Below, one piece after another: positions 24,386-28,957 of a stretch of 45,034 nt of DNA (positions are counted from its first letter, which is position 1; every line of letters starts with the position of its first letter). Location: assembly GCA_017536625.1 (NCBI GenBank), contig JAFXGY010000005.1:1-45034 (forward strand). The letters are read 5' to 3'. Position numbers and translations under genes: made by a program. The notes beneath the pieces were generated by a model. It worked only from the letters and a program-made list of their open reading frames with translations. It made no database searches and had not been told where the DNA came from. Source of the DNA: Oscillospiraceae bacterium. Its GTDB lineage: Bacteria; Bacillota; Clostridia; Oscillospirales; Ruminococcaceae.

Positions 24386-25108
24386 ATGTCCGTAGTATCT
24401 ATGAAACAGCTGCTTGAAGCTGGTGTACACTTTGGTCACCAGACCCGCCGCTGGAACCCCAAAATGGCTCCGTATATCTTCACCGAAAGAAACGGAATCT
24501 ACATCATCGACCTTCAGAAAACCGTTAAAAAAATCGAGGAAGCATATTCCTTCGTAAACGAAATTTCTGCTGAAGGCAAATCCGTTCTTTTCGTCGGCAC
24601 CAAAAAACAGGCCGCAGATTCCGTTCGTGAAGAAGCAGAAAGAGCAGGCGCTTATTTCGTAAACGCTCGCTGGCTCGGCGGTATGCTCACCAACTTCAAG
24701 ACCATCAGAAGAAGAATCGCTCGTCTTCAGCAGCTCCGCAAAATGGAGGAAGACGGCACTTTCGATCGCCTTACCAAGAAAGAAGCAACCAAGCTCACTC
24801 TCGAAATCGAGAAACTTGAAAAATTCCTTGGCGGTATCGAAGATATGACCGAGCTCCCCGGTGCTCTTTTCATCGTTGACTCCAGAAAAGAGAAAATCGC
24901 CGTTGCAGAAGCAAAAAAACTCGGTATTCCGATCGTAGCTATTGTTGACACTAACTGTGACCCCGACGATGTCGACTATGTTATCCCCGGCAACGATGAC
25001 GCTATCCGCGCTGTAAAACTCATCGCAGGCACCATCGCTGACGCTATCATCGAAGGCAGACAGGGTGAACAGAATCTTCCTGAAGAATCTGAAGAGGAGG
25101 CAGAATAA
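24386..25108 (+). CDS. rpsB: 30S ribosomal protein S2
   Basis: A 240-residue S2. The start [21 protein letters not shown] and the later [27 protein letters not shown] and [20 protein letters not shown] are conserved S2 segments. AAGGAGG lies 9 nt before the ATG. Codon use is that of a highly expressed gene. It begins the rpsB-tsf unit; the stop is one base before the tsf ATG. Confidence 0.98.
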
Positions 25109-25109
25109 T

Positions 25110-26030
25110 ATGCCCTTTACCGCTCAAGACGTTAAAACTCTCCGTGAAATGACCGAATGCGGAATGCTCGACTGCAAAAAAGCTCTCATCGAAACCGATG
25201 GCGACATGGAAAAAGCAGTAGAATTCCTTCGTGAAAAAGGCCTTGCATCTGTTGCTAAAAAAGCAGGCAGAATTGCAGCAGAAGGTATCGTTCTTGCATT
25301 CACCGACGAAGCAAAGAAAGCTTCCGTTGCAATCGAAGTCAACTCCGAAACCGACTTCGTTTCCAAAAATGAAGATTTCCGTGAATTTGTAAAACTTGCA
25401 GGACAGGCTGTTATCGATAACAACCCTGCAGACGTTGAAGCTCTCCTCGCATGTGTTGTTGACGGCAGAACCGTTAATGAACATCTTCAGGACAGACAGC
25501 TCAAAATCCGTGAAAACCTTAAAGTCCGCCGTTTCGTTCGTTATGAAGGCGACGTCGCAACTTATGTTCACGGCGGCGGCACCATCGGCGTTATGGTAAA
25601 ATTCGCAACCGATGTTGCAGATAAAGAAGGCTTTGCAGAATACGGCAAAGATATCGCAATGCAGATCGCTGCAGCAAACCCCACTTATATCTGCGAACAC
25701 TGCGTACCTGCAGAAGTTATCGACCATGAAAAAGAAATCCTCATGGCACAGATCGACAACGATCCCAAAATGGCTTCCAAACCCGATGCAGTAAAAGCAA
25801 AAATGGTTGACGGCAGAATCGGCAAATATTACAAAGAAAACTGCCTCATGAACCAGGAATTCGTAAAAGATCCTGATCTCGATATCAAAGGCTACACCGA
25901 AAAAGTTGCAAAAGAACTCGGCGGCTCCATCAAAATCGCTGAATTCGTACGTCTTGAAAAAGGCGAAGGCATCGAGAAAAAACAGGAAAACTTCGCAGAC
26001 GAAGTTGCCAAACAGATGGCAGGCAAATAA
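25110..26030 (+). CDS. tsf: Translation elongation factor Ts
   Basis: A 306-residue EF-Ts, the guanine nucleotide exchange factor of EF-Tu. The UBA-like N-terminus (VKTLREMTECGMLDCKKALI) and the core motif SETDFVSKNEDF are visible. GAGGAGG lies inside the end of rpsB, 9 nt upstream, so both are co-translated. Length is within the family range. Confidence 0.98.
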   Translation: MPFTAQDVKTLREMTECGMLDCKKALIETDGDMEKAVEFLREKGLASVAKKAGRIAAEGIVLAFTDEAKKASVAIEVNSETDFVSKNEDFREFVKLAGQAVIDNNPADVEALLACVVDGRTVNEHLQDRQLKIRENLKVRRFVRYEGDVATYVHGGGTIGVMVKFATDVADKEGFAEYGKDIAMQIAAANPTYICEHCVPAEVIDHEKEILMAQIDNDPKMASKPDAVKAKMVDGRIGKYYKENCLMNQEFVKDPDLDIKGYTEKVAKELGGSIKIAEFVRLEKGEGIEKKQENFADEVAKQMAGK

Positions 26031-26060
26031 TTCAGCCTTAATGAATTAAGTGCGTTATGA

Positions 26061-26100
26061 CAGAAGGATATAGATTTGTATTATAAATTATATCCTTCTG
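26061..26100 (+). other. Hairpin between tsf and the pduS-like gene
   Basis: CAGAAGGATATA pairs perfectly with TATATCCTTCTG (12 pairs), with a bulged G and an inner ATTT/AAAT stem. No U-tract follows, so it is not a simple terminator. It may be an RNA-processing or stability element that separates the two gene pairs while allowing read-through. Confidence 0.55.
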
Positions 26101-26149
26101 GATTATATTAAAGCGTAAATTGCAGAAAATTACAGGGAGGTGCATTCAT

Positions 26150-27505
26150 ATGAGTTTAGTCGAAACCGTAAAGAATGCCGGTATAGTCGGTGCGGGCGGC
26201 GCAGGTTTTCCTACCCATGTAAAACTGAACGCTAAATCCGAGTACTTCATTGTCAACGCAGCAGAGTGTGAGCCCCTTATCGAAACCGATAAGTTCCTCA
26301 TGCGTACCAGAGCAGCAGACCTTGTAAAAGGTGTTGACATGATCGCAAAGGAACTCGGCGCTGACAAAAAGTACATAGCTCTCAAAGCAGCATACAAAAC
26401 CGAAATTGCTGCTCTCGAAGCTGCTATTGCTGAAGCCGGAAGCGACATCAAACTCCACAAAATGGGCTATTTCTACCCGGCTGGTGACGAGCAGGTAATC
26501 GTTTGCGAAATCACCGGTAAATCCGTTCCCGAAAGAGGAATTCCGCTTATGGTCGGCGCAGTTGTCGATAACGTAGGTACCGTTCTTAACATCGTTGATG
26601 CTTTTGAAGGCAAACCCGTTACCGATAAATTCCTCAGCGTTGTCGGTGAAGTAAAACACCCCGTTATGCTTTCCGTACCGCTCGGAACTTCCGTTCGTGC
26701 CTGCGTTGAAGCAGCATGCCCCACCATTTCCAACTATGCAGTAATCATGGGTGGACCTATGATGGGCGGCGTACATGATCAGGAAGAAGATATCGATAAA
26801 CTTGTTATCACCAAAACCGACGGTAACATCATCGTTCTTCCCAAAGATCATCACCTCGTAAGATGGGCACATCTTAAATCCGAGTCCATGAAGAACAGAG
26901 CTAAATCCAGCTGCATCCAGTGCCGTATGTGCACTGATAACTGCCCCAGATATCAGATCGGTCATGATATTGAACCCCATAAGATCATGAGAAATCTTTA
27001 CAGAGAAACCATGATCACCGATAACGATGAATTCCTTCGCGTATTCGGACATGCAATGAACTGCTGCGAATGCGGTGCTTGCGAACTCTTCTCCTGCCCG
27101 ATGCACCTTGCTCCCAGAAAAGCAAACGTCTATATCAAGAGCAAGCTCCGTGAAAGAGGAATCGACGTTCCGAAGAACATGGAACCTCAGGAAAGACCTG
27201 ACCGTGAAATCAGAAAGATTCCTACCAACCGCCTTGCAGCTCGTCTTGGCCTTTCCAAATACTATGGCAAACATCTTCTTACCGATGAACCCATCGTTCT
27301 TGAACCCGAAACTGTTGAGATTCCTCTCAAACAGCACATCGGCGCTCCTTCCACCGCTGTTGTTGCAGTAGGCGACAAAGTTCAGAAGGGCGACATAATC
27401 GGCCAGATGGACGAAGGCAAACTTGGTGCAAATGTTTATGCAAGCTTTGACGGCGAAGTTATCGCTGTTACTGACAGAGTAGTATTAAGGAGGGAGAGCA
27501 AATGA
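26150..27505 (+). CDS. PduS/RnfC-like Fe-S flavoprotein (SLBB domain)
   Basis: A 451-residue protein with the RnfC/PduS order: a nucleotide/FMN loop GIVGAGGAGFPTHVKL at the start, a central SLBB-type part, two [4Fe-4S] motifs (CIQCRMCTDNCP near residue 255 and CECGACELFSCP near 305) and a C-terminal barrel-sandwich domain. PduS reduces cobalamin in propanediol-utilising microcompartments, while RnfC is the NADH-binding subunit of Rnf. Pairing with a PduT-like shell protein favours a PduS-type role. GGGAGGTG lies 9 nt before the ATG. It overlaps the next gene by 4 nt. Codon use resembles tsf, with very few GCG codons. No B12 enzyme or other compartment gene is in the window. Confidence 0.85.
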   Translation: MSLVETVKNAGIVGAGGAGFPTHVKLNAKSEYFIVNAAECEPLIETDKFLMRTRAADLVKGVDMIAKELGADKKYIALKAAYKTEIAALEAAIAEAGSDIKLHKMGYFYPAGDEQVIVCEITGKSVPERGIPLMVGAVVDNVGTVLNIVDAFEGKPVTDKFLSVVGEVKHPVMLSVPLGTSVRACVEAACPTISNYAVIMGGPMMGGVHDQEEDIDKLVITKTDGNIIVLPKDHHLVRWAHLKSESMKNRAKSSCIQCRMCTDNCPRYQIGHDIEPHKIMRNLYRETMITDNDEFLRVFGHAMNCCECGACELFSCPMHLAPRKANVYIKSKLRERGIDVPKNMEPQERPDREIRKIPTNRLAARLGLSKYYGKHLLTDEPIVLEPETVEIPLKQHIGAPSTAVVAVGDKVQKGDIIGQMDEGKLGANVYASFDGEVIAVTDRVVLRRESK

Positions 27506-28050
27506 TCCAGACTATCGGAATGCTTGAATTCAACAGCATTGCAAAAGGTATCGAAACCTGTGATGTAATGCTCAAAGCAGCAGAAGTTTCCCTTATCAGA
27601 ACTTCTACTGTTTGCCCCGGCAAATATATCATCATCATCACCGGCGACACCGGTTCCGTAAAAGCCTCCATTCTTGCAGGCGAAATGAACGGCGGCGAAT
27701 GTGTCGTTGATAAAATGATCATCCAGAACGTACATCCCCAGCTTATTCCCGCACTCAGCGGCACCGCACAGGTCGTCAAAGGCGACGCTATCGGCGCAAT
27801 GGAATTCTACAGCATCACCTCTGCTATCAAAGCAGCTGATGTTGCTGCAAAAGCTGCACAGATCAGCCTTGTTGGAATCACCATGGGTTATGCTGTCGGT
27901 GGTAAAGGTATTGTAACCCTTACCGGTGACGTTGGCGCTGTAAGAGCTGCTGTTGCTGCAGGTATCGAAGAAGCAGCACGCATGGATCTCTATATCGGTT
28001 CCACCGTTATTCCGAAATATGCACCCGAACTTTTCGATTCTCTTCTGTAA
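27502..28050 (+). CDS. PduT-like tandem-BMC shell protein
   Basis: A 182-residue protein made of two bacterial-microcompartment domains (about 1-90 and 92-182). Domain 1 starts TIGMLEFNSIAKGIETCD, domain 2 AIGAMEFYSITSAIKAAD. TVCPGKY places Cys38 exactly where PduT binds a [4Fe-4S] cluster in the pore of the pseudohexameric trimer. AAGGAGG overlaps the end of the upstream gene, and the ATGA overlap implies coupling. The pair would link an Fe-S flavoprotein to a redox-active shell pore. Absence of other BMC genes nearby is unusual. A terminator follows. Confidence 0.9.
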   Translation: MIQTIGMLEFNSIAKGIETCDVMLKAAEVSLIRTSTVCPGKYIIIITGDTGSVKASILAGEMNGGECVVDKMIIQNVHPQLIPALSGTAQVVKGDAIGAMEFYSITSAIKAADVAAKAAQISLVGITMGYAVGGKGIVTLTGDVGAVRAAVAAGIEEAARMDLYIGSTVIPKYAPELFDSLL

Positions 28051-28074
28051 TCGCTGCACTGCAAATAAAAATCA

Positions 28075-28104
28075 CACCCTGCCTTTTTGGCAGGGTGTTT
28101 TTTT
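28075..28104 (+). terminator. Terminator after the pduT-like gene
   Basis: CACCCTGCC, TTTTT loop, GGCAGGGTG, then seven T. Confidence 0.92.
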
Positions 28105-28149
28105 ATACAAAATGTGTAAGTTCAAAATGCCGAATTTCTTAAAATCATC

Positions 28150-28178
28150 TTTACATCCTGTGCTTATTTTGATAAAAT
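28150..28178 (+). promoter_or_regulatory. Promoter of pyrH-frr and downstream genes
   Basis: TTTACA (28150-28155), 17-nt spacer, TAAAAT (28173-28178). Start codon of pyrH is 71 nt downstream. Confidence 0.6.
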
Positions 28179-28249: not shown

Positions 28250-28957
28250 ATGGACCTTAAATATAAGCGCGTACTTCTTAAACTCAGCGGTGAAGCCCTT
28301 GCGGGCGAAAGAGGCGTCGGCCTTGATTTCAGCGTAATTACCCCTATTTGTGAAAGCATCAAAAAATGCGTCGAACTCGGCGCGGAAGTCGCAATCGTAG
28401 TCGGCGGCGGAAACTTCTGGCGCGGACGTTCCAGCGGAAACATGGACAGAACCAGAGCTGACCATATGGGAATGCTTGCAACTATAATCAATGCAATCGC
28501 CGTGGGCGATACCCTTGAACAGATGGGAGTAAACGCAAGAGTTCAGACCGCAATTTCCATGCCGGAAATCGCAGAACTTTTCATAAAAGGCAGAGCCGAA
28601 AGACATCTTGAAAAAGGCAGAGTCGTCATTTTCGGCGGCGGAATCGGAAGACCCTGTTTTTCCACCGATACCGCAAGCGCCCTTAGAGCCGTGGAAATCA
28701 ATGCGGATATCTTCTTTAAGGCAACCATGGTTGACGGCGTTTATGATAAGGACCCCCGTAAGTTCGATGACGCAAAACGCTATGATACCCTCACCTTTAA
28801 AGAGGTGCTTGATAAAGAACTCGGCGTTATGGACGCAACTTCCGCAGCACTTTGCCGCGATAACAATATGCCGGTGCTTGTTTTCAGCCTTGATGACCCG
28901 GATAATATCGTAAGGGCAATAACCGGCGAAAATATCGGAACCGTCGTTACCGGCTGA
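28250..28957 (+). CDS. pyrH: UMP kinase
   Basis: A 235-residue UMP kinase of the amino-acid-kinase fold, converting UMP to UDP with [15 protein letters not shown] at the start, [22 protein letters not shown], and the C-terminal [16 protein letters not shown] and MDATSAALC are family motifs. The start at 28250 follows TTGGAG by about 9 nt; an in-frame start 5 codons earlier overlaps that site. In most Bacillota pyrH directly follows tsf, while here two genes intervene. Confidence 0.97.

Follow-up and report, generated by a model that had tools for sequence, protein, structure and literature searches.

The closest described relatives of the locus analysed here are the satellite and satellite-like microcompartment (BMC) loci as defined in the accessible part of Axen 2014 (PMC4207490), in which a shell gene lies away from the main BMC locus of the same genome. 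In the portion of Sutter 2021 that was available (PMC8217296), such satellites appear to have arisen by fission from a main locus. PduS itself is placed in EUT2B and EUT2D loci in the same accessible part of Axen et al. (PMC4207490), and it is characterised as a soluble flavoenzyme in the available excerpt of PMC6325248. As reported in the accessible part of PMC2982820, the PduS of Citrobacter carries FMN and two [4Fe-4S] clusters, reduces cobalamin in an NADH-dependent manner and binds PduT. The window examined here is the whole 45,034-nt stretch (contig JAFXGY010000005.1, positions 1 to 45,034, assembly GCA_017536625.1 of an Oscillospiraceae bacterium), and it encodes a pduS-pduT pair with the features of a satellite-like locus, namely too few shell genes, contiguity, another BMC-related gene and a non-satellite BMC locus elsewhere in the genome. 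However, it differs from the satellites in the accessible parts of PMC4207490 and PMC8217296 by joining a redox enzyme to a shell protein and by lying in a translation gene cluster. We consider it highly probable (roughly 0.88) that the pair is a satellite locus of the fission type, produced by relocation and belonging to the EUT2-like ethanolamine (eut) microcompartment that the same genome encodes. Both satellite BMC loci and PduS-bearing EUT loci are thus known kinds; the arrangement at tsf and pyrH was not found in our literature search, which returned no paper on pduS/pduT at this junction and had most subscription journals outside its scope.

The pair is read from the forward strand, as are its scored neighbours. 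Upstream lie rpsB, encoding ribosomal protein S2 (24386..25108; TIGR01011, 366.9 bits), and tsf, encoding elongation factor Ts (25110..26030; TIGR00116, 279.9 bits), and downstream pyrH, encoding UMP kinase (28250..28957; TIGR02075, 300.8 bits), followed by frr, with all three scores above their cut-offs. In between, pduS (26150..27505) encodes a PduS-type FMN/[4Fe-4S] reductase of 451 aa, with a longer TTG-started frame from 26120 also open, and pduT (27502..28050) encodes a tandem-BMC shell protein of 182 aa with a pore-type Cys38. The overlap of the two genes by 4 nt (ATGA) between tsf and pyrH, noticed in an earlier sequence-only reading of the window, is confirmed by the frames and domain matches.

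All four domains listed for PduS in the accessible part of PMC6325248 are recognisable in the window protein: Complex1_51K (PF01512), Fer4_17 (PF13534) and RnfC_N (PF13375) score above the Pfam cut-off, and SLBB (PF10531) alone falls just below it (25.4 against 27). Nine cysteines, comprising one single residue and two tetracysteine motifs (C40, 255, 258, 261, 265, 305, 308, 311 and 316 in the window PduS), do not vary across the 21 PduS proteins chosen for alignment, one of them from E. coli. RnfC and PrdC proteins are sequence relatives, including the solved RnfC chain 7zc6, yet the window PduS scores below the curated cut-offs for both (241 bits against 245.95 for NCBIfam rnfC, and 209.9 bits, well below the cut-off, for the PrdC model) and has its own RnfC_N as the last, C-terminal domain. 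The idea that the pair includes a membrane-facing electron donor is not backed, PduS being soluble in the portion of PMC6325248 cited above.

The window PduT consists of two BMC domains (PF00936) and has 3nwg, 3pac and 3n79 as its best solved relatives, with solved PduT chains aligning over residues 1-173; judged from domains and alignment alone, it is a tandem-BMC protein of the trimer type. Cys38 indeed sits in the CPGK context described earlier (VCPGK), aligned to the CPGK of the PduT chain 3pac, so that pore residue and motif are in place and a [4Fe-4S] cluster is predicted. The motif recurs in 92 of 93 aligned PduT rows, many of them duplicates from genomes fetched twice, and the remaining row is truncated. 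Because the score against NCBIfam TIGR02526 (eut_PduT) is 141.4 bits, below the cut-off of 250.3, the protein is filed as PduT-type and not as an eut_PduT equivalog. Overall, the pair resembles the PduS/PduT of EUT2B/2D and PDU loci in its four-domain PduS, nine cysteines, CPGK-bearing PduT and adjacent genes, but it differs from them in lying outside the eut operon, beside tsf and pyrH.

A BMC search of the window genome returned ten domain matches, of which the window accounts for two, contig C42 for six and contig C30 for two. Thus, the statement that no other microcompartment gene is present holds for the window and fails for the genome, in which eight matches lie outside it. The C42 matches belong to a single-strand, EUT2-like run of 16 eut genes (C42:54657-67814) in the order eutS, P, A, B, C, L, an M/K-like BMC-H, E, M, M, T, pduL, eutJ, an unknown gene, eutN and eutH. 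Pfam matches cover BMC, PduV-EutP, EutA, EutB, EutC, Aldedh, Cob_adeno_trans, PTAC, EutN_CcmL and EutH, and for the more specific names (S, L, M, K, E, T and J) we rely on gene order and general knowledge. The run holds the complete EUT2 main-locus set (eutA, eutB, eutC, aldehyde dehydrogenase, PduL-type PTAC, BMC-H and BMC-P), and its 16 genes include no PduS, PduT, alcohol dehydrogenase or two-component regulator. In the accessible part of PMC4207490, a two-component regulator accompanies 87% of EUT2 loci. An ANTAR search of the window genome gave no match, and the control genomes were equally silent. The window pair is the sole PduS and the sole PduT-type protein of its own genome, the next PduS match being an RnfC-like protein on C39 (36%).

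The sequence-only reading had called the pair stand-alone, either serving a compartment encoded elsewhere or working without one, and had named a full locus with its own pduS/pduT, or absence of the pair from relatives, as findings against it. The genome search for BMC-H, BMC-P and signature enzymes that it proposed found all of them on C42 and no pduS/pduT of their own, which means that a full eut locus is present and its own copies of the pair are absent. An operon with shell and core enzymes that lacks precisely this pair, on another contig of the same genome, speaks against the stand-alone label and for a compartment encoded elsewhere.

The placement is a property of the genus. A pduT match is present in 13 of the 15 genus genomes, window included, and in all nine of high quality. 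The order tsf-pduS-pduT-pyrH is contained on one contig in 8/15 (the window, G154, G198, G203, G204, G205, G207 and G208), and pduT precedes pyrH, with tsf past the contig end, in G199, G200, G202 and G206. Hence pduT lies upstream of pyrH in 12/15 genomes, and between tsf and pyrH wherever both sides are visible. Since the same gene order recurs in other assemblies of the genus, mis-assembly is unlikely. The tsf-pyrH placement is not shown in three of the 15 genomes. In G061, the most diverged member (PduT 77%), the pair occupies a third site and the tsf-pyrH gap carries a different insert; G201 (73% complete) gave neither a pduT nor a pyrH match; and in G197 what looks like an incomplete pduT terminator stands before pyrH, with the contig running into other sequence and ending immediately upstream of it, so that pduT may have lain beyond the contig end. 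The vacated site can be seen in seven genus operons read through, where eutN is followed by eutH at a distance of ~235-270 bp.

In several relatives, the pair is found at the site left vacant in the C42 operon. A PduT search of 197 family genomes matched 28, comprising 22 full-length PduT-type proteins and six partial BMC matches. Genera of the family other than that of the window often carry the pair inside the eut operon: G114 has eutN-pduS-pduT-eutH, G064 has eutN-pduS-pduT with no eutH within the following 2.9 kb, and the loci L062-L069 read eutN-pduS-pduT-eutS-eutP; in L070-L074 the pair lies within another BMC locus type. In the survey of PduT-like neighbourhoods suggested earlier, the order tsf-pduS-pduT-pyrH thus recurs in the window genus, and other genera carry the pair in BMC loci. 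A scan of named genomes yielded 70 PduT loci, of which 11 have pduT upstream of pyrH; these are all titled 'Oscillospiraceae bacterium' (10 with ruminant rectum, colon or cecum) and are assemblies already counted in the genus. The other 59 showed no tsf or pyrH hit in the flanks fetched, some of them short. The order eutN-pduS-pduT-eutH was seen in Blautia, Lachnoclostridium An196, Clostridium aminobutyricum, Butyricicoccus pullicaecorum and Flavonifractor plautii. Outside the genus, PduT at 56-64% identity lies beside eut genes wherever the flank is readable (which it is not in L124), and in the named loci whose BMC gene sets are of other kinds the identity is ~35-46%.

The same picture emerges from the side of the eut locus. 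A EutL search of 393 class genomes matched 30, with 29 places above 149 bits in 24 genomes, the window's included. Of the 28 non-own places, 15 have pduT (E up to 1e-15) no more than 10 kb away on the same contig; among the 14 whose EutL identity is at least 58%, 12 do. Given this last proportion, eut loci of this kind usually include the pair, and the window genus departs from the norm by encoding it at another site. One further genome, G254, has its EutL (59%) on one of the contigs C59/C69 and its best PduT (33%) on the other, which would fit either a further case of detachment or a different BMC. In addition, on the Ilyobacter polytropus plasmid pILYOP01 (L182), pduB and a diol dehydratase subunit are preceded by a PduS-like and a BMC gene, whose neighbours encode a PocR-domain regulator, a response regulator and an ATP-binding protein.

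The idea that the pair works without any compartment, as a cytosolic NADH-driven donor coupled to an Fe-S trimer, is consequently very improbable. It could draw on the separation of the pair from other BMC genes and its contact with translation genes, and on G202, where a pduT fragment occurs with no EutB hit in an assembly that is 89% complete and has the fragment at a contig end. Against this stand the same-genome eut operon without the pair, the clear main eut operon piece in 12 of the 13 pduT-bearing genus genomes (several cut by contig ends), the joint presence of pduT and EutB in all nine high-quality ones (where the EutB match may be a non-operon copy), the relatives that encode the pair inside the eut operon, and the parallel trees considered below. 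Lone shell genes near housekeeping genes thus call for a whole-genome check before they are labelled stand-alone.

The tsf-pyrH junction had been described as one of the most conserved, a view that does not hold in this family. Among 11 pyrH loci of relatives (G061 and ten genomes of other genera), tsf lies upstream of pyrH in only six, at gaps of 191, 255, 399, 809, 871 and 1250 nt, and was not detected in the other five within the 5.7-7.7 kb fetched upstream of pyrH. Therefore, the junction is open to change in the family, and in relatives it holds other inserts. A GRM-like BMC locus (by gene content) with its own pduS-pduT lies ~7 kb upstream of pyrH in G013 (C1:1230001-1250000; L071); this is not counted as a second insertion into the junction, as other genes intervene and no tsf was found in 60 kb, and its proximity to pyrH is probably coincidence. 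Within the genus, extra genes stand between pduT and pyrH in G200, G204 and G205. The inserts seen in this gap (L076, L077, L081 and L106) include a 775-aa ORF with a signal-like start in G205, a small ORF in G204, the foreign sequence upstream of the partial terminator copy in G197, and in G200 a second ethanolamine ammonia-lyase, eutBC2 (49-51%), inserted divergently (L081:9927-12198). Hence, the gap looks like an insertion hot spot.

The window genome has a eutBC2 of its own outside the main operon (C8:2390-4725; L085), ~50% identical to the operon copy, and G208 has one (L086) beside genes resembling, by eye, a kinase and a response regulator. The window genome also has a second BMC satellite (C30:52997-54331; L011:12997-14331), in which two EutS-like BMC genes are joined by EutP; no further compartment gene lies alongside, and a 3137-aa ORF with a subtilisin-type secreted look by eye adjoins it. 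C30-like BMC gene pairs with the same spacing are listed in 11/15 genus genomes, and the check for EutP covered that of the window. It could be speculated that the pair serves one of these, eutBC2 or the C30 satellite, in place of the main eut shell, as the eutBC2 insertion beside pduT in G200 and the recurrence of the C30-like pair might suggest. This is no more probable than a compartment-free role: the neighbours of the eutBC2 loci L081, L085 and L086 differ, with no shell gene matched apart from the pduS-pduT of L081, the C30 satellite has no adjacent BMC-P or enzyme, and relatives hold the pair in the main eut operon.

That the pair belongs with the main eut operon is also reflected in their shared history. 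Across 22 hand-chosen loci, all of them eut loci, PduS+PduT distances follow those of EutB+C+L+E with a Mantel r of 0.876, a value reached by none of 9999 permutations. The genus, G061 included, forms one clade with support 1.000 in both trees; the remaining eut loci branch differently in the two trees, with weak support at some nodes. Several EutB rows and one EutE row of the named loci are partial, cut by the end of the flank or frame, and the Flavonifractor PduT frame is over-long (375 aa). The pair and the eut operon have evolved in parallel. An independent horizontal gain from another BMC, such as GRM or PDU, into the junction and unrelated to eut is the least credible alternative, for although PduT in other BMC types is common among the 70 named loci and the junction accepts other inserts in relatives, the PduT proteins at 56-64% lie with eut genes and those of other BMC sets reach only ~35-46%, and the distances run parallel in the comparison of eut loci.

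The pair is under purifying selection, with its ligand cysteines kept. The dN/dS is 0.100 for pduS (9 genomes) and 0.070 for pduT (11), next to 0.083 for tsf (7) and 0.050 for pyrH (12), with dS of 0.22 for pduS/pduT, 0.36 for tsf and 0.84 for pyrH over genome sets that differ. This makes the genus a clean natural case of an NADH-to-Fe-S electron port that left its microcompartment operon, with the vacated site visible and the pair kept by selection, and it marks PduS-PduT as a unit moving together, whose regulation could here be separate from that of the other organelle genes.

A satellite of the eut microcompartment would have come about and would function as follows. Ancestrally, the pair would have lain in the eut operon next to eutN, probably before eutH, and in the window genus it would have left that operon and come to lie upstream of pyrH. 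By analogy with characterised homologues, the PduT trimer would be built into the eut shell with a pore [4Fe-4S] cluster on Cys38, and PduS would dock on its inner face, taking electrons from NADH via FMN and two [4Fe-4S] clusters. PduS would then reduce cob(III)/cob(II)alamin, which EutT would re-adenosylate for the ethanolamine ammonia-lyase EutBC, and PduT would offer an electron path across the shell. By homology, the pair thus probably uses NADH to reduce cobalamin for EutT, the PduT pore providing an Fe-S path for electrons.

An alternative role, in which the pair would re-oxidise NADH and so replace the alcohol dehydrogenase EutG as the NADH sink, is not favoured, as mutual exclusion would be expected, whereas the pair and an alcohol dehydrogenase co-occur in many eut loci. 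An Fe-ADH lies within ~11 kb of EutL at no fewer than 7 of the 15 places with pduT nearby (G436, G370, G578, G524, G523, G209 and G460). Among the matches listed, no same-contig Fe-ADH was seen in G303, G256, G379, G413, G432 and G400; the nearest one listed for G587 lies at a distance of 26 kb, and G255 has a single hit, which falls outside the matches listed. G061 has no Fe-ADH hit in its genome, in agreement with an ADH-free route there and in no other genome. Because of this co-occurrence, genomics does not pin the cargo role.

How the pair is expressed may be approached from the sequence around it. The gap between tsf and pduS contains a conserved A+T-rich hairpin (26061..26100, forward strand) in which 98.9% of 91 cells are paired across seven genomes; two pairs are changed on both sides, each in one genome, and 11 of 500 shuffles did equally well, making the signal modest. 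This hairpin is a possible attenuator, RNA processing site or operator, and the stretch that follows (26106-26149) is identical in 7/7 genomes. A candidate promoter-like site, ATGACA-16-TATTAT (26057..26084, forward strand), has its second hexamer within the hairpin loop; ten such sites in the region compare with 7.4 (sd 2.6) expected by shuffling, a weak excess. Behind pduT, an intrinsic terminator (28074..28105, forward strand) is formed by a 10-bp stem with 7 G-C pairs and T7, in a region with 11 terminator-like sites against 7.2 expected, and a hairpin with a T-run is visible by eye after pduT in the ten other genus genomes with the gap shown. A candidate promoter-like site for pyrH follows (TTTACA-17-TAAAAT, 28150..28178, forward strand), the same by eye in L096, L100, L101 and L104, with near variants in L095 and L098. 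By eye, five of the six tsf-pyrH junctions of relatives have a hairpin and T-run just after tsf, the sixth (L104) has a hairpin with no clear T-run, and all six have a promoter-like site before pyrH.

The tsf-pduS gap yielded no strong terminator, its A+T-rich hairpin standing alone, so the pair may be read together with rpsB-tsf; this is not certain, because a promoter-like site sits in the leader. Read-through, a leader promoter or both are possible, with transcription presumably ending at the terminator after pduT and pyrH probably read from its own promoter-like site. The codon adaptation, measured against two reference genes (rpsB and tsf), is 0.61 for pduS and 0.67 for pduT, similar to eutA/B/C/E/L (0.62-0.77); the match with the eut genes is partial, as eutM2 and pduL reach 0.52-0.57 and eutS, P, M/K, T, J, N and the unknown gene only 0.37-0.49. 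Among 38 long window ORFs in a mechanical list, only rpsB, tsf, frr and pduS exceed 0.55. Beside rpsB-tsf, the pair is possibly expressed like a housekeeping gene. One could go further and propose that this placement makes it a growth-linked, constitutive redox port uncoupled from ethanolamine, with a PduS-PduT pool shared among the eut shell, eutBC2 and the EutS/EutP satellite or acting before a shell is formed, an extension that we regard as unlikely.

Shared regulation of the pair and the eut genes was considered and rejected, as the pduS leader has exact words of at most 10 bases in common with the sequences that precede eutS, eutH, the C30 satellite and eutBC2. Nowhere else in the genome does a strong copy of the leader recur, its best match beyond its own inverted arm having an E-value of 0.197, and the Rfam search gave one match at gathering score, a tRNA, besides weak sub-threshold hits. 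The eutN-eutH gap of the window genome (C42:55914-56147), L057 and L058 contains a leader before eutH with inverted repeats CCTTGAA...TTCAAGG around CCTGTTTT...AAAACAGG; Rfam matched nothing at gathering score here in L009/L010, nor anything nearby in L057. Finally, upstream of eutS, a TTTACA/TATAAT site is visible by eye in 7/7 aligned genomes, those of the window and G061 included, and on C42 it is accompanied, again by eye, by a conserved leader stretch, GAAGTGCGTCTATAGGTGCGCC..., with repeated GTGCTCA words that are absent in G061 and are possibly an operator for a eut regulator.
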